Source: Taibaiella sp. (GTDB lineage Bacteria; Bacteroidota; Bacteroidia; Chitinophagales; Chitinophagaceae). From it: DNA of 64,000 bases. Location: assembly GCA_019638495.1 (NCBI GenBank), contig JAHBTQ010000002.1, positions 248,001-312,000 of the forward strand, written 5' to 3'. The notes under the pieces were generated by a model that saw only the letters and a program-made list of their open reading frames with translations, ran no database searches and had not been told where the DNA came from. A program made the translations under genes and the position numbers. This document shows positions 1 to 13,308 of the stretch, in pieces (the stretch's first letter is position 1; every line of letters begins with the position of its first letter).

Positions 1-2
1 CC

Positions 3-1544
3 CTAAATGTATTCCCGATACCCGGGACAGATTCATCGTCGTTTCTGCCGCCGGCGCTTACATTCGGGCAGGGTAAGGGCCTGGTTAATCCCTTTTTCTT
101 CGCAAGCGAAATTACCGACCTCACAGGCAACCGGCTTTATAATTATTATGTACCTTTTTATACATGGTTCCTCGGTTTTTGGGTGGCCATCATACCGGGC
201 ATAAAGACCATATTTGTTGTGGGGGCCTTGCTTACTACGCTGGCACTGCTCTTGTACAGGCGGATTATTATTAACGGGACTCCTGCTTCTGCCGGCAAGC
301 TTTTTACTGCCACAATATTGCTTTCCATTCCCTACCTGGCCACCTACTCGCTACCCACCATCGGCAGGCCCGAGCAGCTTACTGCTCTTTTGCTGCTGGT
401 GTTGTTCGTGCTATACCGCAACAGGGCACGTATTGGCTTCTGGCTATACAACCCATTACTGGTCGCAATATTTGCGGTGCTGCTGGCCACGCAGATCATT
501 GGTTTTTATTTCGCGTTCCTTGTGTTTCTCATCATCGAATTCGTGCAGCAAGGCGATGCCGGGCGGGTTTTGGTAGTGAATGTAGTACGTGCAATTGGCG
601 TGCTACTTCTGTTCTACCTTATCCTGGAGGCCAGCCCCAATGGTTTCAGAGTCACTATTGAAGGCATTTTAAGTGTATCCCCGATGATCTTCATGAGAAC
701 CGATACCGGTATCCGCTCATTTGTGTTCTTTTGGCTATTGAGCCCGTTCAATATTGGTTTCGCAGTAGTATTCCTGGCTTGCATTCGTTATTGGCTCCTC
801 TACATGCGCCAGTCTCTTCCGGCTGTGGCCCCTATAAATAAGTTCTTCATAATATGCCTGCATATAGCCCTGGTCGCCGGCATTTTTGCATTTCTCCTTC
901 ATAGGCCTCCTACCGTGTACAATGCTACACAGTACATTTACGTTTTTGTGCTTTTCCTGCTGCTGAACTATGATAAATACCGTGGCAGTAAGTATCATTT
1001 CTTTATTCTGCCTTCATTGATGTTTTGTTTCCTGGCAGGCAGCCTGCTGTTTTTACGTACCCTCGTATTGTTTATCGACACAAAGGCCGATGGCAAGGAT
1101 TACGCTGCGGCGAGGAATAAACTGGCGGAAGTAGAAAGGAAATATGGCAGGTGCTATACACAGCTCAACTTATGGCCTTTATACGACGACCCATACAACG
1201 TGTTGACCCTGGAAAAGAGATACATGCGCCCGCCAACCCCTACTGCGCACCCCGGCGAAATAATTGTGATGCCGAAAACCAATGAAGGTACCCCGCAAGA
1301 TGTGCCCGCCAGCCCGGAGTTGGCTGAAGCGCTTGACGTTTATGACACGCGCAACTTCTTCTATATAGTACATTCCGGCGATATCATAGTAATGCCGCAG
1401 GCAAATAAGGATATCCCCAGGAGTTTGCTGGACAGGAGCGAAATACTGGAAGACTGGCGCACCACCAACGTACGCACCTTTATGCATATACCCATAGCAC
1501 GCCACCCATTCGGATATAGCTTTGTAGTGCTGAGGGTGAAATAG
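3..1544 (+). CDS. Membrane GT-C-like glycosyltransferase, 5' end outside the window
   Basis: The frame is open from the first bases of the window (it reads NPFFFASEITDLTGNRLYNY before the first in-frame ATG at 183), so I annotate a 5'-truncated gene with 513 visible residues rather than starting at 183. The visible part holds about ten hydrophobic segments in the first 350 residues and a soluble C-terminal domain of about 150 residues. The GRPEQL motif after a hydrophobic helix resembles the short loop motifs of GT-C integral-membrane glycosyltransferases, which use lipid-linked sugar donors at the cytoplasmic membrane. That family call is inference; the catalytic DD/DE loop would be in the missing N-terminus. 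Other polytopic envelope proteins remain possible. No clear terminator follows. Confidence 0.6.
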   Translation, partial: LNVFPIPGTDSSSFLPPALTFGQGKGLVNPFFFASEITDLTGNRLYNYYVPFYTWFLGFWVAIIPGIKTIFVVGALLTTLALLLYRRIIINGTPASAGKLFTATILLSIPYLATYSLPTIGRPEQLTALLLLVLFVLYRNRARIGFWLYNPLLVAIFAVLLATQIIGFYFAFLVFLIIEFVQQGDAGRVLVVNVVRAIGVLLLFYLILEASPNGFRVTIEGILSVSPMIFMRTDTGIRSFVFFWLLSPFNIGFAVVFLACIRYWLLYMRQSLPAVAPINKFFIICLHIALVAGIFAFLLHRPPTVYNATQYIYVFVLFLLLNYDKYRGSKYHFFILPSLMFCFLAGSLLFLRTLVLFIDTKADGKDYAAARNKLAEVERKYGRCYTQLNLWPLYDDPYNVLTLEKRYMRPPTPTAHPGEIIVMPKTNEGTPQDVPASPELAEALDVYDTRNFFYIVHSGDIIVMPQANKDIPRSLLDRSEILEDWRTTNVRTFMHIPIARHPFGYSFVVLRVK

Positions 1545-1683
1545 CGAATTGGGAGTAAGCCCTGCCTGCTAGTGTTCTTCACCAACGCAAAATGTATGAT
1601 TAGAAGCAATCGCTCTATACTAGTGCGAAAATGAAGGTTACAAAGATTTTTTGCTCGTAGGCTTTGATGGTTTTTTGCGGTTC

Positions 1684-1776
1684 ATGCCCGAAGGGCATAC
1701 CTGTTAATAGCCCCCGGTGTAACCGGGGGTAGGTAACAACCTCAACACACGCACCCCGTAGGTGGTGCACCCGTCG
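1684..1776. repeat. 93-bp dispersed hairpin repeat, copy 1
   Basis: This copy aligns without gaps to 2195-2287, with about five mismatches in 93 bp. It begins with the stem ATGCCC-GAA-GGGCAT. A perfect 8-bp stem CCCCCGGT-GTA-ACCGGGGG follows, and the repeat ends in GCACCCCGTAGGTGGTGC, which can also fold. Both stems survive in both copies, which suggests a structured element rather than decayed coding sequence. Confidence 0.8.
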
Positions 1777-1880
1777 AGGTACATGATACCTGAACATCGA
1801 TTTTGCGCGACCGGATCATTTATGGGTGGGCTGAAATGCTTGCCTGTATTGGTTATGGTGTTTTTCTTTAACTTCTACGC

Positions 1881-1970
1881 GGTGCTAAACGCTTCTAAAA
1901 GTTGCTAAAAGTTGCGCAGGAACTGCTGCCAATTGCTAAGGATTGCTAAAAACTGCTACCAACTGCTGAA
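1881..1970. repeat. Degenerate 10-nt tandem repeat (TGCTAAA core)
   Basis: Nine consecutive 10-nt blocks carry a TGCT(A/G)-like core at nearly fixed phase, for example GTTGCTAAAA, AATTGCTAAG, GATTGCTAAA and AACTGCTACC, with one 1-nt slip after the fourth block. No reading frame fits it. Its role is unknown. Confidence 0.65.
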
Positions 1971-2015
1971 ACCCTACCGGGGAGAGCTTACTTCGTAGGG
2001 ACAACCAAAATTCCT

Positions 2016-2033
2016 TCCCGATAGCTATCGGGA
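2016..2033. repeat. 18-bp perfect palindrome
   Basis: TCCCGATAGCTATCGGGA is its own reverse complement. It could be a protein-binding site or a dispersed palindrome; no adjacent gene start explains it as an operator. Confidence 0.7.
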
Positions 2034-2194
2034 CGATTACCGAATTCCCCAAAGTCACCATAAAGGTGCGCCAACAATGTCAAAACGACAAAACAATAAT
2101 CTATGACAAGACGCAAGCGTTCTGTGATAGGGTGGAAATGAGGGTTTCATTGATTTTTTTGGCGGACGGCTTCGGAGGCTTTTTTTGACAATAA

Positions 2195-2287
2195 ATGCCC
2201 GAAGGGCATACCTGTTAATAGCCCCCGGTGCAACCGGGGGGCGGTAACAACCTCAACACACGCACCCCGTAGGTGGTGCAACTGTCG
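2195..2287. repeat. 93-bp dispersed hairpin repeat, copy 2
   Basis: Second copy of the element at 1684-1776, same orientation, 511 bp downstream. The CCCCCGGT/ACCGGGGG stem is intact and its loop differs by one base (GCA instead of GTA). Confidence 0.8.
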
Positions 2288-2529
2288 CCGAGCAAACTAT
2301 GTGGTATTGATTCAGTAGGTGATGAGTTGAGATTGTGCATTAAGATAAAGATGTTCGGAGTTCCGATGGTTATCTGAAGGGATTTATTCCGCGCTCCGGT
2401 TCACACCCTCTGGAAGAAGCGGAACAACGGGGGCGACTCCAATATGGAGATTGATTACCGCCGGGACGTAGTCGGGAGACTACGCCCAACGGGGGCTTTA
2501 TATATCTTTTTTCGCCGGATGGACCTGGC

Positions 2530-2537
2530 TATCTTTG
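2530..2537 (+). promoter_or_regulatory. Candidate -7 box TATCTTTG upstream of AlbA_2 operon
   Basis: TATCTTTG matches the Bacteroidota TAnnTTTG -7 consensus and lies about 150 nt upstream of the AlbA_2 start. A second box is at 2613-2620, so two start sites are possible. Confidence 0.45.
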
Positions 2538-2612
2538 ACCGGAGACGAATTGTATCGTCTATTGGCTGTAATTACATTTTTCAAAAATGAAATAAGCTAT
2601 GGCGTTTCAGTT

Positions 2613-2620
2613 TACCTTTG
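2613..2620 (+). promoter_or_regulatory. Candidate -7 box TACCTTTG for AlbA_2-ParA operon
   Basis: TACCTTTG matches TAnnTTTG and would give a leader of about 65 nt before the ATG at 2691. It is the closest match to the gene and the more likely operon promoter. Confidence 0.5.
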
Positions 2621-2690
2621 AAGTGGAATTTTTGAATGTCTTTTTTAATTGGCGCGAATTCCTACTTGCAACGGCTAATAGCTCCTAGAA

Positions 2691-3896
2691 ATGATAACGA
2701 GAGACCAAGCAATAGCTCTTATGAGCGATATGGAAAGTGATTGGATTGAGAGGACCGTCTCAATTCGTGAAGATAAATTGGGGCCTGCTGTATGCGCATA
2801 TTCAAATGACTTTCCTAATCACAAACAACCTGGGTATATCCTTTTGGGTGTTAACGACGATGGAAAGATCGCGGGAATGACTTGGACGGATGATCAATTG
2901 CAGGCAATTGGCAATATTAAAAGTAATGGAAAGATTCTACCTCAACCTTCTCTGGTGGTGAGTCAAGTGTTTAAGTTTCCTGCAGGTGAGATAGTCGTTG
3001 TTGAGGTTCTACCCTCGCCATATCCTCCAGTTCGATTCGACGGAAGATGTTGGATACGGGTGGGTCCCCGCAGGGACAGAGCAAACCTTGAAGAAGAGAG
3101 AATTCTAATTGAGAGACGGGCAGGTCACGCAAAAACCTATGATCTTGTTCCTTCGTTTGGGGCGACCGTTGAGGATTTAAGTGTTGAACTTTTTAGAATG
3201 AGTTATCTTCCAAATGCGATTGACAAAGCAACGCTAATCGAAAATGGCAGGACCGTAGAACAACAACTTGCTTCATTGCGTTTCTTCGACACAAGAGAAA
3301 ATTGTCCTACCGTAGCGGGTATATTATTGTTTGGTCTGAATCCTGAGTTCTATATCCCTGGCTCTTATATTCAATTCGTCAAATTCGTCGGAGAAGAAAT
3401 GACCTCTGATGTAGAGTATCAAAAGAAATTTTCAGGTGCATTGATTACCGAGTTAGGATTATTGGATGAGTTTATAAAGACAAATATTATAAAAGACAGA
3501 CCGACGAAAAAGGATGCATTTATTGAAGAGATTATTCGTAACTATTCATATTGGGCATTGAGGGAACTTTTGATGAATGCAGTTATGCATAGAAATTATG
3601 AGTCGAACGCGCCGATATATATATATGAGTTTTCAAATCGGATTGAAATCATAAATCCAGGTGGCTTATATGGAGAAGCAACTCCACAAAATTTTCCCAA
3701 TGCCAGTGATTACCGTAACGTGGTTTTAGCGGAGGCTATGAAGGTGTTAGGTTACGTGAACCGCTTCAATTATGGGGTGAAACGAGCCATTGACGAGCTT
3801 CAACGAAACGGCAATGGTAAACCGGAATTTGACCTTTCTTTAACGACAAAATTTAAAGTTACAATATTGATTAATTCACAATGGCAACGAGGGTAA
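2691..3896 (+). CDS. Schlafen-type AlbA_2 domain protein with C-terminal HATPase_c_4 domain
   Basis: 401 residues. Residues ~12-140 match the AlbA_2 (Schlafen-fold) layout: an ESDWIERT start, then GYILLGVNDDGKIAG, then a VRFDGRCWIRVGPRR strand pair. Residues ~275-385 look like the GHKL-type ATP-binding domain found at the C-terminus of many AlbA_2 proteins: ALRELLMNAVMHRNY carries the N-box-like E, N and HR residues and INPGGL is a G1-like loop. The usual glycine-rich second loop is replaced by NRFNYGVKRA, so ATP binding is not certain. The stop overlaps the ParA-like gene by 16 nt, so the two are probably co-translated. AlbA_2 proteins are often labelled transcriptional regulators on thin evidence, and some related proteins are nucleases or immunity factors. 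Function here is not known. The gene is visibly A/T-richer than the sdh region. Confidence 0.8.
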   Translation: MITRDQAIALMSDMESDWIERTVSIREDKLGPAVCAYSNDFPNHKQPGYILLGVNDDGKIAGMTWTDDQLQAIGNIKSNGKILPQPSLVVSQVFKFPAGEIVVVEVLPSPYPPVRFDGRCWIRVGPRRDRANLEEERILIERRAGHAKTYDLVPSFGATVEDLSVELFRMSYLPNAIDKATLIENGRTVEQQLASLRFFDTRENCPTVAGILLFGLNPEFYIPGSYIQFVKFVGEEMTSDVEYQKKFSGALITELGLLDEFIKTNIIKDRPTKKDAFIEEIIRNYSYWALRELLMNAVMHRNYESNAPIYIYEFSNRIEIINPGGLYGEATPQNFPNASDYRNVVLAEAMKVLGYVNRFNYGVKRAIDELQRNGNGKPEFDLSLTTKFKVTILINSQWQRG

Positions 3897-4861
3897 TTAC
3901 TTTTTTCAATAATAAAGGAGGAGTTGGTAAAACAACTACCGTCTATCATGTTGCATGGATGCTATCGCAACTAGGAGTAAGAACACTTGCATTCGATTTA
4001 GATCCGCAATCGAATCTCACTTCCATGTTTTTAACAAACGAAAGGCTTGAAGATATTTATGAATCAAATGCGCCAATAACAATACTCGATGCAATAACTC
4101 CAATCGTAAATGGAGATCAGGCTGTGCCAGTACATATAGAACGGATCACTGATAATCTTGGATTAATATTGGGTAACCTGGCATTGTCAACTTTTGAGGA
4201 TACTCTGAGTGATGCATGGTTAAAGTGCTTGAATGGCGAAATCTATTCCTTTAGAATTACCAGCATTTTCAAGACGATTATCGACGAGTCGGTAATTAGG
4301 TTCGATGCCGACGTGGTATTGGTTGACGTTGGACCAAATCTGGGTGCAATAAACAGGGCAATTACAATCAGTTCCGATTATATTATCATGCCAGTAGCTT
4401 CTGACCTATTTTCGATTCAAGGCATAAAGAACCTAGGAACAACACTGAATTTGTGGAAAAAACAATGGCAACAAAGAAAGGATTTAAAACCGCAGCAGCT
4501 AACTGTCCGAATACCCGAAAATTACTCGAATCCTATAGGGTATATTGTAATGCAATACTCCGCAAAGGAGAGCAGACCGGTTAAGTCCTATTTGAAATGG
4601 GCAGAACGGATACCTAGAATATTTGCTCAATATGTATTGAATCTTGATGTACTTAATGTTAACTCAACCGAGGCTGATCCTAATTGTATAGCATTATTGA
4701 AGCACTATAGAAGTTTAGCGCCGATGTCTATGGAAGTACACAAACCAATATTTCTATTAAAACCAGGAGATGGCGCTATAGGGGCACACGTATATGCGGT
4801 ACAGAAAAGCTATGACGATTTCAAGCTCCTTGCAACAAAGATATTAGAACGGTGTCTTTAA
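3881..4861 (+). CDS. ParA/MinD-like deviant Walker ATPase
   Basis: 326 residues. The N-terminus carries the deviant Walker A motif NNKGGVGKTTT (about residues 10-20), with both the signature and catalytic lysines, then AFDLDPQSN (Walker A' region) and VVLVDVGPNLG (Walker B). Such ATPases dimerise on ATP and position DNA or protein cargo. No ParB gene or parS-like array is visible nearby, and the only partner is the overlapping AlbA_2/HATPase gene. The C-terminal third (from about residue 200) is longer than in a minimal ParA and could hold the partner-specific part. The ATG is set by the motif lying 10 residues in, as is usual. It looks like an accessory, chromosomally carried stand-alone ParA rather than the chromosome-segregation ParA, which pairs with ParB. 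Confidence 0.85.
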   Translation: MATRVITFFNNKGGVGKTTTVYHVAWMLSQLGVRTLAFDLDPQSNLTSMFLTNERLEDIYESNAPITILDAITPIVNGDQAVPVHIERITDNLGLILGNLALSTFEDTLSDAWLKCLNGEIYSFRITSIFKTIIDESVIRFDADVVLVDVGPNLGAINRAITISSDYIIMPVASDLFSIQGIKNLGTTLNLWKKQWQQRKDLKPQQLTVRIPENYSNPIGYIVMQYSAKESRPVKSYLKWAERIPRIFAQYVLNLDVLNVNSTEADPNCIALLKHYRSLAPMSMEVHKPIFLLKPGDGAIGAHVYAVQKSYDDFKLLATKILERCL

Positions 4862-4888
4862 GCCCATCCCACCTAGTTGAATGCCTAG

Positions 4889-5012
4889 CTTCCGAAACTA
4901 AAAATGTGAATATCTCTTTTCACCCGCCCACCAATCACTCCTGCCTTTGTGCCTTTCCAAACCCTTTCTGTAGGCTCATTTCATCTTTGCGTTCATAGAC
5001 GCATTTTATGAA
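4889..5012. repeat. ~125-bp direct repeat, copy A (upstream of secreted-protein gene)
   Basis: This copy aligns over its full length with 5647-5775, with scattered substitutions and small indels. Both copies carry the run AACTAAAAATGTGAATATCT and a promoter-like (T)GCCTTTG/TACCTTTG box, and both end in ACGCATTT(T)ATGAA. Copy A is the 5' region of the gene at 5061. Confidence 0.75.
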
Positions 5013-5060
5013 AAGAATTTCTCTGCCTTATAGTTGTCTATCTTTACGAAAAGTAGAGAA

Positions 5061-5570
5061 ATGTTCAGATGGCCGCTGGCTGTGCTATTCATGATTTTGC
5101 CATTTGGGATTCAAGCGCAGCCCATTGAAAACACAAGAACTCCATATACACTCAAACTTGTTGTTGACGAAGAAAATTTCTTTGAGAGTGAAATAGCAGC
5201 AGGTAAATATGTCAACGGGCAAAATGCAGTCCAGGTTTATCCCGGAGAAAGTATTTTATTGGAGGCAGATTTGAAAGACGGCAAAATCGGTACGCTTTCT
5301 TGCGTTAAAGAGAACTTACATCCCGAACGAACAATAACGGTAAGTTTTATGCAGCATACGACTGGGAAAAAGCATGAATTGATGATGTTAGAGGTAACCA
5401 ATCCCTTTAGTGAACGTCTTTCTTATCAGGCAGGTATCTACCTTATGAAGTCCGAGAAGTGGGTAAAAACTTCAGTTCTTCCAATATTACCAAAATTGAA
5501 GGTGTATGAGACTTGGCCAGATATGATTGTTTCTATCGCGTTGACAGATTGGGCACTCGGTGACAAGTAA
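5061..5570 (+). CDS. Small secreted protein, unknown function
   Basis: 169 residues from the ATG at 5061; an in-frame TTG at 5034 is rejected because the ATG gives a compact signal peptide (MFRWPLAVLFMILPFGIQAQ, cleaved after AQA-like residues). The mature part is mixed beta-rich sequence with no motif I recognise (PYTLKLVVDEENFFE, VQVYPGESILLEADL). A TATCTTTA box lies 15 nt upstream. The gene sits between two copies of a ~125-bp repeat, which suggests that the unit was duplicated or inserted. Probably periplasmic or surface-exposed; function unknown. Confidence 0.6.
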   Translation: MFRWPLAVLFMILPFGIQAQPIENTRTPYTLKLVVDEENFFESEIAAGKYVNGQNAVQVYPGESILLEADLKDGKIGTLSCVKENLHPERTITVSFMQHTTGKKHELMMLEVTNPFSERLSYQAGIYLMKSEKWVKTSVLPILPKLKVYETWPDMIVSIALTDWALGDK

Positions 5571-5646
5571 AATGTGGTCAGTAGTTGTTCTAATTCGTCC
5601 GCCTGGTCGAAGCGTCGGCTTCGTCCTAACCTATGCAAGCGTCTCA

Positions 5647-5775
5647 CTTCGGAAACTAAAAATGTGAATATCTCTTTTTCGCCCGCCAACCAATCAATCC
5701 TACCTTTGTGGCATCCTAAAACCCTTTCTGTATGTTCTGCAATTTAATGTCGCGTTCACTTACGCATTTAATGAA
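5647..5775. repeat. ~125-bp direct repeat, copy B
   Basis: Partner of 4889-5012, same orientation, starting about 760 bp downstream. It carries a better -7 box (TACCTTTG, 5701-5708) than copy A, yet no gene follows it, so it may be an orphaned promoter left by a lost or moved gene. Confidence 0.75.
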
Positions 5776-6097
5776 TTTTGCTGCTTCCGTCCGGCCAAAA
5801 GTTATTCACAAATTCGTGGAACATTTTTGTATACTTTTTGGTAACTTTTGCAGGGTCAAAGCCAATGCCGGCACGGATTATACTTTTTCAAAAATATTTG
5901 TGCCGAGGTGCGCATTTTTCGTGTATGACGCGTTGTGTGATGTATAAGCGCTGTCATTAGTTGCACCCGCTACGGGGTGCGTAGGGTGGCGGGTGGTGTC
6001 TTCGTGCTACAAAGCTTATATCCCTAACGGGGTAGGAAACGAATAGTGCTTATTCGGTTGCACTACGCCCGGCATGGCTACCTGCCAACTACCATCA

Positions 6098-6188
6098 CGG
6101 ATTCACAACCCGCAACCCACGACTCACAACCCACGACTAATGACTCTCGACTTACTACTCATGACTTACGACTTACGACTTACGACTC
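6098..6188. repeat. Heptanucleotide tandem repeat (ACGACTC-like), 13 units
   Basis: Thirteen consecutive 7-nt units in perfect phase, for example ACAACCC, ACGACTC, ATGACTC, ACGACTT, ACGACTT, ACGACTC. It ends about 45 nt before the TTG of the sdhC promoter. The units are degenerate but no phase shift is seen. Confidence 0.85.
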
Positions 6189-6233
6189 AATAGCGCAATT
6201 CACATCCTGTTATTATTCTATTGCGTTTACTAA

Positions 6234-6264
6234 TTGGGTTTTAAAACGTGGCGCGTTATCTTTG
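6234..6264 (+). promoter_or_regulatory. sdhC promoter (TTG-N20-TATCTTTG)
   Basis: TTG at 6234-6236 and TATCTTTG at 6257-6264, separated by 20 nt, fit the Bacteroidota sigma-ABfr promoter (TTG/TAnnTTTG). The leader to the ATG at 6306 is about 35 nt. Confidence 0.65.
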
Positions 6265-6305
6265 TGACCTCATAAGCACATACATATTAAACTTCGGCTG
6301 ATAAC

Positions 6306-6980
6306 ATGAATTGGAATAACTATTTCAGCACTTCGATAGGCAAAAAAATCATAGTAGGCGCTACAGGTCTTTTCCTGGTGCTTTTCCTGGTGGTGCATGC
6401 CTATGTAAATGCAATGATCTTCTGGATGGACGGTGGAAAGCACTTTACGGAGGCTGCCGGGTTTATGGGCGGCAACGTTGCCGTGCGTATCCTGGAAATA
6501 GGCCTTTTTGCGTTTCTGATCCTGCACATGGTGCAGGGGCTTATGCTGGCATCGCAGAATGCCAAGCGCCGTACACAGCGCTACCAGGTAAGTGCCGGCA
6601 ATGCTACCAGCAAGTGGTATAGCCGCTCCATGGGCCTGCTGGGCACGCTTATCCTGTTGTTCCTTATCCTTCACCTTTTCCACTTCTGGGCGCCAAACCG
6701 TTATGGCCAGGCTTTTGACCCTCAATGGACAGAGGAAACACTCTACAACAAGATGCTGGAAGTATTCAGTCATCTATGGGTAGTGGTAGTGTATGTGCTG
6801 GGCTGCATATCGCTGGCATGGCACCTGATGCATGGCTTTTATAGCGGCTTCCAGACGTTTGGCCTGGCTACGCACAAGTACAAAGGTATTATCCGCTCCA
6901 TAGGCGTGGCATTCGCAATTATCGTTCCGGCGATATTTGCCAGCATGCCGGTGTACCTGCACATGATAAGCAACCACTAA
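6306..6980 (+). CDS. sdhC: Succinate dehydrogenase cytochrome b subunit (membrane anchor)
   Basis: 224 residues with five hydrophobic helices, the usual architecture of the single-chain, di-heme type B anchor of Bacteroidota SQR/fumarate reductase complexes. Conserved pieces include SIGKKIIVGATGLFLVLFLVVHA near the start, ILHMVQG, and ILHLFHFW, whose histidines are likely heme ligands. It anchors SdhAB in the inner membrane and passes electrons to quinone. First gene of the operon; sdhA follows after 77 nt. Confidence 0.93.
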   Translation: MNWNNYFSTSIGKKIIVGATGLFLVLFLVVHAYVNAMIFWMDGGKHFTEAAGFMGGNVAVRILEIGLFAFLILHMVQGLMLASQNAKRRTQRYQVSAGNATSKWYSRSMGLLGTLILLFLILHLFHFWAPNRYGQAFDPQWTEETLYNKMLEVFSHLWVVVVYVLGCISLAWHLMHGFYSGFQTFGLATHKYKGIIRSIGVAFAIIVPAIFASMPVYLHMISNH

Positions 6981-7057
6981 TAATGGGCGAGGGGAGGAAG
7001 CAGTGCTGCAGTTGCAGATGACAAACAATAACAACCTGATTATTTTATAGAATTGAT

Positions 7058-9034
7058 ATGGCGTTGAATTCTAAAATACCGGCAGGTCCTCTGGACCAGA
7101 AATGGGAAAAGTATAAATCTACCTGTAAGCTGGTGAATCCTGCCAACAAACGGCAGATAGAGATAATAGTAGTGGGTACCGGCCTGGCCGGCGCTTCGGC
7201 TGCTGCATCTCTGGGTGAGATGGGGTATAAGGTAAAGGCGTTCTGTTTTCAGGATAGCCCGCGCCGCGCTCACTCCATTGCCGCGCAGGGTGGCATCAAT
7301 GCTGCCAAGAACTATCAGAACGATGGTGACAGCACTTACCGCCTGTTTTACGATACTATTAAAGGTGGCGACTACCGTGCGCGCGAAGGCAATGTGCATC
7401 GCCTGGCAGAGGTAAGCGCAAATATCATTGACCAGTGTGTGGCACAGGGTGTTCCGTTTGCCCGCGAATATGGCGGCCTGCTGAGCAACCGTTCGTTCGG
7501 TGGCACGCAGGTGCAGCGTACCTTCTACGCTGCCGGCCAGACCGGCCAGCAGCTGCTGATAGGTGCCTACCAGGGGCTGGAGCGCCAGGTGGCATTGGGC
7601 ACTGTAACACAGTATAGTCGCCACGAAATGCTGGAAGTAGTGACCATAGACGGCAAGGCGCGTGGCATCATAGCCCGCAACCTGGTAACAGGTGAGCTGG
7701 AGCGTCACTTTGGCCATGCTGTGCTGCTGTGCACAGGTGGTTATGGCAACGTTTTCTACCTGTCTACAAACGCCATGGGCAGCAACGTTACTGCAGCATG
7801 GAAGGCACATAAGAAAGGAGCATTCTTCGGCAACCCTTGCTTCACACAGATACACCCTACCTGTATACCGGTAAGTGGCGATCACCAGTCTAAGCTGACG
7901 CTGATGTCTGAGTCGCTACGTAATGACGGCCGCATCTGGGTGCCTAAAAAGCAGGGTGACAACCGCAAGCCTACTGAAATACCTGAAGAAGAAAGGGATT
8001 ACTACCTGGAGCGCAGGTATCCTGCCTTTGGTAACCTGGTGCCTCGCGACGTGGCCAGCCGTGCTGCCAAGGAGCGTTGCGATGCGGGCTACGGTGTGGG
8101 CTCGTCTAAGATGGCCGTGTACCTGGACTTTGCATCTGCAATAGAGCGCTATGGCAAGGTCGAGGCCAACAAGCAGGGCAAGCACGATGCCAGCAAGGCA
8201 GAGATAATAAAGATGGGTAAGGAAGTGGTGAAAGAAAAATATGGCAACCTGTTTGACATGTATGCCAAGATCACCGGTGAGAACCCATATGAAGTGCCAA
8301 TGCGTATATATCCTGCGGTACACTACACAATGGGTGGCCTTTGGGTAGACTATGAATTGATGACGACGGTACCAAACCTGTATGCACTGGGCGAGGCCAA
8401 CTTCAGTGACCACGGTGCAAACCGCCTGGGTGCCTCTGCATTGATGCAGGGCCTGGCTGATGGCTACTTCGTAATACCGTATACATTAGGTAACTCAATG
8501 GCTGACGAGATCCGTACAAAGGCAATACCAACGGATCACCCTGCATTTGTGGCGGCTGAGAAAGAGGTGGCAGACCGTATAAACCGTCTCATGAGTATCA
8601 AGGGAACAGAAAGCGTAGAAAGTTTCCACAAGCGCCTCGGCAAGATAATGTGGGACAAGTGCGGTATGGGTCGTAATGCTGAGGGTCTGCGCCAGGCTAT
8701 CACAGAGATACAGCAACTGCGCAAAGAGTTCTGGAGCAATGTGCGTATACCCGGTGAGATCACTGGCTACAACCCTGAACTGGACAAAGCGGGCCGCGTG
8801 GCCGACTTCCTGGAGCTGGGTGAGCTGATGTGTATAGACGCGCTGGATCGCAACGAAAGCTGTGGTGGTCACTTCCGCGAGGAGTCACAAACTGAGGACG
8901 GCGAAGCGCTGCGCGACGACGAAAAGTACATGTACGTAGCAGCGTGGGAATACAAAGGCGAAAGCCAGTTTGAACTGCACAAAGAGGAGCTGAAGTATGA
9001 AGTAGTTCATCCGAGTGCGCGTAGCTATAAGTAA
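7058..9034 (+). CDS. sdhA: Succinate dehydrogenase/fumarate reductase flavoprotein subunit
   Basis: 658 residues. The FAD-binding Rossmann motif [18 protein letters not shown] lies at residues ~38-55. [14 protein letters not shown] carries the histidine that binds FAD covalently in this family. The substrate and capping region is [11 protein letters not shown], the catalytic-arginine block is [12 protein letters not shown], and FAD is also contacted by [20 protein letters not shown]. It oxidises succinate to fumarate in the TCA cycle, or the reverse in anaerobes. The length is typical of the Bacteroidota long form. In this family SdhB normally follows directly; here a 114-residue S23 gene intervenes. 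Confidence 0.97.
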
Positions 9035-9496: not shown

Positions 9497-10263
9497 AACA
9501 TTATTCAATGAACCTTAACCTTAAGGTTTGGCGTCAGAAAAACAATAAGTCACAAGGTCATTTTGAAACTTTCAAAGTGAAGGACATTTCGTCCGAAATG
9601 TCTTTCCTGGAAATGTTCGATGTGCTGAACGAGCAACTCGTGTCTGAAGGCAAGGAGCCAATCGCATTCGATCATGACTGCCGCGAGGGTATCTGCGGTA
9701 TGTGTAGCATGCACATCAACGGTCGCGCGCATGGTCCGTGGAATGAGACGACCACTTGCCAGCTCCACATGAGGGAGTATAAGGATGGTGATACTATCGT
9801 GGTAGAGCCATGGCGTGCAGAAGCCTTCCCTGTTATCAAAGACCTGGTGGTAGACCGTACTTCGTTTGACCGTATTATAGCAGCAGGTGGCTATGTATCC
9901 GTAAACACCGGTAACGCGGTAGACGCAAACGCCCTGCCTATTGAAAAGCAACGCGCTGATGAGTCTTTTGCAGCAGCGTCTTGCATTGGTTGCGGTGCGT
10001 GCGTGGCGGCTTGTCCTAATGCATCGGCTATGCTCTTCGTATCGGCTAAGGTGTCTCACCTGGCACTACTGCCACAGGGCGAGCCCGAGCGTAAGGTACG
10101 TGCCGTGAATATGGTGCGCCAGATGGATACAGAGGGCTTCGGTAGCTGTACTAATATCGGCGCATGCGAAGCTGAATGTCCTAAAGGTATCTCACTCGAG
10201 AACATTGCCCGCCTGAACCGCGAGTATATCGGCGCGGTATTCTCAGGTAGTGCACAAGGCTAA
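9493..10263 (+). CDS. sdhB: Succinate dehydrogenase/fumarate reductase iron-sulfur subunit
   Basis: 256 residues from the ATG at 9493; an ATG at 9508 ([10 protein letters not shown]) is equally plausible, while the TTG at 9451 would translate repeat DNA and is rejected. The [2Fe-2S] ferredoxin domain has CREGICGMC plus a later Cys (TTTCQL). The [4Fe-4S] site is [13 protein letters not shown] and the third cluster region is [14 protein letters not shown]. It carries electrons from FAD in SdhA to the SdhC quinone site. The gene ends in a strong bidirectional terminator. The 5' end is built from an octamer repeat tract, so its translation signals may differ from those of relatives. Confidence 0.95.
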
Positions 10264-12840: not shown

Positions 12841-13308
12841 ATGGAAACGAATGCAACGGAGAAAATAGCACAGCTATACCAGGCGCTTCTGCAACAGTGG
12901 AATAAACGGAGTGCAGAAGGAATGACAGGTTTGTTCGCAAAGAATGGTACGCTTATAGGATTTGACGGCAGCCAACTAAACGGACAGGCTGAAATCTATT
13001 CGGTGCTGGATGAGATCTTTTCCAATTTTCCCACCGCTGCATACGTATCTATCATAAAGGATGTCAGGATGTTGGGTGAGGGTGCAGCATTGTTGCTGGG
13101 AGTTGCTGGGATGGTGGCACAAGGACAGTCTGATATAAGCCCGGAGGTAAACGTGATTCACAGCCTAACCGCGGTGTTAGAGGACGGTAACTGGCGCGTT
13201 GCCTTGTTTCAGAATACGCCCGCAGCATTTCATGGTCGCCCGGAACTGGCGGAAAAGCTTTCTGCAGATCTGCGTCAGGTATTGAGTGCAGCCGTGTCGC
13301 AGAACTAG
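12841..13308 (+). CDS. SgcJ/EcaC-type (DUF4440/SnoaL-like) NTF2-fold protein
   Basis: 155 residues from the ATG at 12841; the in-frame TTG at 12814 is rejected because CAACTTTGCATA just before the ATG looks like promoter sequence. The pattern IAQLYQALLQQWNKRSAEGM, LFAKNGTLIGFDG, GQAEIYSVLDEIF, and a late HSLTAVLEDGNWRVALFQNT follows the cone-shaped NTF2 fold of SgcJ/EcaC family proteins. These are small cytosolic proteins of mostly unknown activity. The stop codon abuts the stop of the convergent gene, sharing the palindrome CTAGCTAG. Confidence 0.75.
   Translation: METNATEKIAQLYQALLQQWNKRSAEGMTGLFAKNGTLIGFDGSQLNGQAEIYSVLDEIFSNFPTAAYVSIIKDVRMLGEGAALLLGVAGMVAQGQSDISPEVNVIHSLTAVLEDGNWRVALFQNTPAAFHGRPELAEKLSADLRQVLSAAVSQN

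Follow-up and report, generated by a model that had tools for sequence, protein, structure and literature searches.

ParA ATPases are DNA- and cargo-positioning motors, and the question raised by this locus is what such an ATPase does when it has no ParB beside it and its gene overlaps that of a Schlafen-type protein. Within the window (the whole 64-kb stretch of DNA analysed here) both genes lie on the forward strand. The first, at 2691..3896, encodes a Schlafen-type protein of 401 residues with AlbA_2 and HATPase_c_4 domains, a putative RNase effector; the second, at 3881..4861, encodes a ParA/Soj-like ATPase of 326 residues, a putative regulator or sensor switch. The two open reading frames share 16 nt (3881..3896, + strand), as an earlier note on this DNA had stated. 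The same note credited the block with its own promoter boxes and an A/T-rich composition, and both observations hold. Two Bacteroidota-type -7 boxes (TAnnTTTG) are present at 2530 and 2613, making 2530..2620 (+) a candidate promoter by consensus match only, with 19 such boxes on this strand in the whole 64 kb. The GC content of the block is 39.8% against 47.1% for the window, a real but modest A/T enrichment given that 15 of 248 windows of the block's size are equally low in GC. The contig carrying the window is 1.0 Mb long and appears to be chromosomal DNA from a Chitinophagaceae-like member of the Bacteroidota, and the genome holds one copy of each gene.

The pair had also been described as sitting between repeat elements. 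Repeats are found on both sides: a 106-nt repeat upstream (1671-1776 and 2182-2287, 90% identical), of which the genome has four full or partial copies, and a longer repeat downstream (4889-5010 and 5647-5768) with a 32-nt core that is 97% identical. Neither repeat coincides with a boundary of the pair, and both were rejected as its insertion ends because the pair is not bracketed by them. A portion of the 106-nt repeat recurs inverted at 5959-5982. The downstream copies flank an open reading frame (5034-5570) whose start is signal-peptide-like, and the second of them carries a TACCTTTG box. No Rfam families were detected within window positions 1-8000.

Domain searches of the first protein with Pfam identified SLFN_AlbA_2 (E=1.3e-13, residues 15-131) and HATPase_c_4 (E=2.9e-16, residues 307-392). 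Its AlphaFold model is of middling confidence (pLDDT 68); residues 1-119 of the model match SLFN5, 11, 12, 13 and 14 and the SAMD9 tRNase domain with Z-scores of 8.0-10.2, while residues 218-401 match the catalytic (CA) domains of histidine kinases with Z of about 8. Three acidic residues, Glu15, Glu20 and Asp56, are invariant in all 33 Schlafen proteins aligned. The catalytic triad of rat SLFN13 is E205, E210 and D248 (PMC5862951), a spacing of 5 + 38 compared with 5 + 36 here, and on spacing and fold range, by which the residues were matched, Glu15, Glu20 and Asp56 may form a Schlafen-like catalytic triad. The earlier description of the AlbA_2 domain as simply nucleic-acid-interacting is unsupported, since the acidic residues together with the fold point to a predicted RNase. 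That note further read the altered G2 loop of the HATPase domain (NRFNYGVKRA) as specialisation. The alteration is genuine, but the reading as specialisation is unsupported: it is drift within the close clade, to which it is confined, as position 360 is Asn in 19 of the 33 proteins and the usual Gly in the other 14. No HEPN match was found in this protein by Pfam. The chain stops at residue 401, just past the HATPase_c_4 domain, and has no Pfam match to a winged helix-turn-helix (wHTH).

The second protein matches AAA_31 (E=3.3e-30) and carries the Walker A' motif KGGVGKT, and its model is of good quality (pLDDT 84.5). The best structural match is 3pg5 (DIP2308, Z 26.4), followed by Soj/ParA. 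The Walker lysine (position 17) is substituted in three of 33 ParAs. NCBIfam and PHROGs return generic ParA and helicase-type names only. No ParB-like gene adjoins the window pair, which distinguishes it from the ParABS partition system and agrees with the earlier account of a deviant-Walker ParA lacking ParB. The ParA fold and deviant Walker A motif could nonetheless serve a non-canonical partition or anchoring system, in which the AlbA_2 protein would replace ParB as the DNA adaptor and ParA would position DNA; AlbA_2 domains are indeed termed DNA-binding in work on pAgo proteins (PMC6299218). We regard this as highly improbable. The cassette is only a few kilobases long and chromosomal, with replication genes absent nearby, and the host encodes its own Soj-ParB pair on a different contig, its Soj falling far outside the studied ParA in the tree. 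The three acidic residues are invariant, and the partners of sister ParAs, described below, are enzymes.

Scanning the Schlafen-protein alignment against 84,980 species genomes recovered 22 close relatives, and scanning the ParA alignment against 395 genomes of the same phylum recovered further relatives. The conservation of the pair had been proposed as the point to check; after removal of duplicates, both genes stand side by side, effector first, at 37 distinct loci, and the pairing is far beyond chance. Only two ParA orthologues (L007 and L050) have no visible partner, because each starts at base 3 of a contig that ends there. Junctions in 18 tabulated loci range from the 16-nt overlap of the window to a 1-nt gap; among the 17 besides the window the longest overlap is 10 nt. 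Such tight junctions suggest translational coupling. The two proteins also co-diverge, with a mirror correlation of r = 0.979 for 32 pairs, a value reached in 0 of 5000 permutations. Including the window gives 0.978 (33 pairs), and the value within a close clade of 14 is 0.69 (0 of 5000 permutations). These values include the shared descent of whole loci and therefore speak for co-inheritance, not contact. Some records bear unexpected names (Altiarchaeales, Clostridiaceae, Beijerinckiaceae and Chloroherpeton); most of them come from draft or metagenome assemblies, and contamination is possible. No relatives of the Schlafen protein were found among viral contigs.

The genomic context of the pair had been put forward as a second check. 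Many copies stand isolated between housekeeping genes that differ by locus, and a clear minority lie within or next to defence genes, those of restriction systems among them. In two loci (L011 and L014) the pair lies between the mod and res genes of a type III restriction system, all in one direction and with close junctions; Pfam identifies the L014 mod as N6_N4_Mtase and its res as ResIII plus RE_endonuc, and the mod and res copies of the other loci group with those of L014 by BLAST. Two more loci, both cut by contig ends, fit the mod-pair-res order, one reading pair-res (L021) and the other HTH-mod-effector (L025). Elsewhere the pair follows an HmaA helicase by 10 nt, with PD-Lambda-4_A upstream and HEC-01A/B downstream (L082), or neighbours HsdR and HsdM (L083), or a type IIG enzyme and an HKD-Snf2 helicase (L085). 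These neighbourhoods, taken as a by-locus tally and not as an enrichment statistic, point to defence. Among the roles that the earlier note had considered for an AlbA_2 protein coupled to an ATPase, phage defence is favoured because the pair is conserved and is found in this minority of loci in or beside defence genes, while plasmid interference and DNA positioning are unsupported, because replicon genes and ParB are both lacking and the partners of related ParAs are toxic effectors instead of DNA adaptors.

Position within restriction operons would also suit a regulatory pair without killing activity, which might for example control transcription of neighbouring genes or of those operons. Annotations frequently label AlbA_2/HATPase proteins as regulators, and a helix-turn-helix gene lies upstream in two loci (L030 and L025). 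Most copies, however, have no shared neighbour that could be a common target, and the protein ends after its HATPase domain with no winged helix matched by Pfam, so that we consider this reading improbable.

One insertion of the pair can be delimited. Synteny between the window and a same-genus genome (G098) breaks at sdhC and no insertion boundary could be set for the window pair, for which reason a Chitinophaga locus was used for an empty site. In this locus (L018) a 3.09-kb insertion comprising the pair and one more open reading frame lies exactly at the 3' end of a tRNA-Arg gene: the sequence matches that of a relative (L123) up to base 9805, the final base of tRNA-Arg(TCT) (9731-9805), and again from base 12893. 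In a congener (L126) the same tRNA is flanked by a gene for a 1550-residue protein matching PADLOC PDC-S37 (2129 bits) and Hhe. This variable slot (L018:9731-12892; L123:6613-6761; L126:2686-7797) is therefore a hotspot that the pair shares with a candidate defence gene. In another locus (L019) a tRNA-Ala gene lies 144 nt from the start of the effector. The two genes move as one mobile cassette.

Related ParAs, equal in length and about 30% identical, also adjoin enzymes, here located downstream. The partners belong to three classes: SIR2 (L054, L060, L061, L063, L068, L069 and L070), HEPN (L067, L072, phage WX-TY L074, phage Pf1 L075 and L147) and RelA/SpoT (L008 and L053). In most cases the partner keeps its catalytic motifs. 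In the ParA tree, which left out L147, the clades are partner-specific, with support of 100/99 for Schlafen, 100/100 for HEPN, 100/99 for RelA/SpoT and 91/99 for SIR2; the ParAs of this wider family were picked from top matches and do not constitute a census. Some related ParAs have no evident partner, for instance copies in P22-like phage immunity regions.

Several details of these loci were noted in passing. The ParA-like genes of Salmonella phage ST160 (L066:2995-4068) and E. coli KE47 (L064:3998-5074), which have no evident partner, lie beside a phage repressor, a neighbourhood that is a typical site of superinfection-exclusion genes. In Pf1 (AY324828.1) an open reading frame straight after the annotated ParA-like gene and overlapping its end (L075:3525-4052) is similar to the HEPN partner found in phage WX-TY. 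It contains RRNSIVH, and the record lists no CDS at this place. The RelA/SpoT loci share a conserved three-gene cassette (L008:725-3076 and L053:888-3221) encoding a protein of ~195 residues, the ParA-like ATPase and the RelA/SpoT-domain protein; the L053 copy of the ~195-residue protein has no Pfam match. A 236-residue open reading frame overlapping a related ParA gene (L073:3992-4702), without a Pfam match and cyclase-like by eye, may be a further partner type. A search for E. coli relatives of the ParA-SIR2 DNA from Salmonella found none.

One branch of this family has been described before: a ParA/Soj-like ATPase gene together with a HEPN gene, for which a toxin-antitoxin role was proposed (Anantharaman et al., 2013; PMC3710099). 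The ParA/Soj-HEPN dyad (MAE_18760) resembles the studied pair in that a ParB-less ParA/Soj of the same wider family, with examples here from phage Pf1, Burkholderia and Bacteroidota, shares an operon with a predicted RNase effector. It differs in that HEPN lies downstream of its ParA, whereas the effector studied here is a Schlafen-HATPase protein encoded upstream, and the studied ParA, about 30% identical or less, forms its own clade.

By extension, the pair could be an addiction module in which a Schlafen toxin and a ParA-like antitoxin maintain the cassette and do not sense phage. The operon is tight and mobile as such modules are, the sister clades carry toxic-type partners (HEPN, SIR2 and RelA/SpoT), and the role would be the one already predicted for the ParA-HEPN dyad (PMC3710099). 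Against this, the effector is intact, including its triad, in three loci (L017, L019 and L026) that show no ParA; neither a degenerate ParA downstream of the effector nor a ParA of the clade elsewhere in these three genomes was found when sought. Survival of this kind is unexpected for a constitutively active toxin. The genomes are metagenome-assembled, so the absence of ParA is not certain, and the three cases mean either that the partnership is not obligate or that they are remnants. In addition, the effector gene comes first, and a DNA-binding autoregulator is not obvious. We therefore judge the addiction module unlikely. The persistence of the effector in genomes where ParA was not found also leads us to favour, weakly, a ParA that activates the effector over one that neutralises it.

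Comparison with other known systems places the pair near, and apart from, several of them. Schlafen RNases that combine with a minimal histidine kinase and a wHTH are common beside BREX genes, as effectors, according to PMC12839542, which also cites a preprint reporting bacterial Schlafens as anti-phage (Taboada et al., 2025). The studied protein shares with these RNases the combination of AlbA_2 with a histidine-kinase-type ATPase and the adjoining defence genes; unlike them, it has no C-terminal wHTH seen by Pfam, and a ParA partner is nearly always present. The best whole-protein structural match of the Schlafen protein is 3lmm (DIP2311, Z 15.4). DIP2308 and DIP2311, the best solved matches of the ParA and the Schlafen protein, are both from Corynebacterium diphtheriae and of unknown function, with low identities of 26% and 19%. 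Within a single genome the two locus tags differ by three, and this alone suggests a related pair in Corynebacterium. IbfA (PMC12111858) was considered as a ParA-linked case and rejected as unrelated.

No named system in PADLOC-DB 2.0.0 is matched over the full length of either protein: the Schlafen protein gives partial matches only, to pAgo and SIR2-pAgo models, and the ParA matches PDC-M28B over about 45 residues only. The earlier note knew of no described system with exactly this pair, and our searches concur. No description of a Schlafen-ParA pair, and none of a ParA-SIR2 or ParA-RelA/SpoT dyad, was found in full-text searches of open-access papers, which covered the titles and abstracts ranked highest and passages of some papers. 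The ParA-HEPN dyad (as a prediction from 2013) and solo Schlafen effectors are already known, and the Schlafen-ParA pair is most likely an uncharacterised module.

Taken together, these results favour, with a probability of about 0.6, a mobile immunity cassette of two genes that would act through abortive infection or dormancy, consisting of a Schlafen RNase and a ParA switch. In the proposed mechanism the AlbA_2 domain of the Schlafen-family effector, with its three invariant acidic residues, is predicted to cleave RNA, the probable substrate being tRNA or rRNA, while the HATPase domain probably binds ATP and would drive assembly. The ParB-less ParA would act as a nucleotide- and probably DNA-dependent switch that licenses or restrains the effector once infection is sensed. 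What is inferred here is the RNase activity and its target, whether ParA activates or restrains the effector, and that phage sets the system off. PrrC is an NTP-controlled tRNase (anticodon nuclease) that acts as a second line within a type I restriction operon, and inside a type III operon the cassette could play a similar part. The likeness is one of logic only, as the nucleases are unrelated, the operons differ in type (I versus III), and regulator and nuclease are fused in PrrC.

More tentatively, the ParB-less ParAs may be a common infection switch for a class of immunity modules whose toxic effectors (Schlafen RNase, SIR2 NADase, HEPN RNase or RelA/SpoT-type synthetase) are interchangeable. 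Such modules would occur in Bacteroidota, on plasmids and in phages, Pf1 among them, and the Schlafen branch would be a tRNase system serving also as a second line in type III restriction operons; we consider this whole reading possible, short of an even chance. If this ParA branch does control exchangeable killing enzymes, it would be a new regulatory core for bacterial immunity. The mod-pair-res arrangement would offer a direct test case for 'restriction guarded by an RNase', and two distant crystal structures of unknown function, 3pg5 and 3lmm, would be explained.
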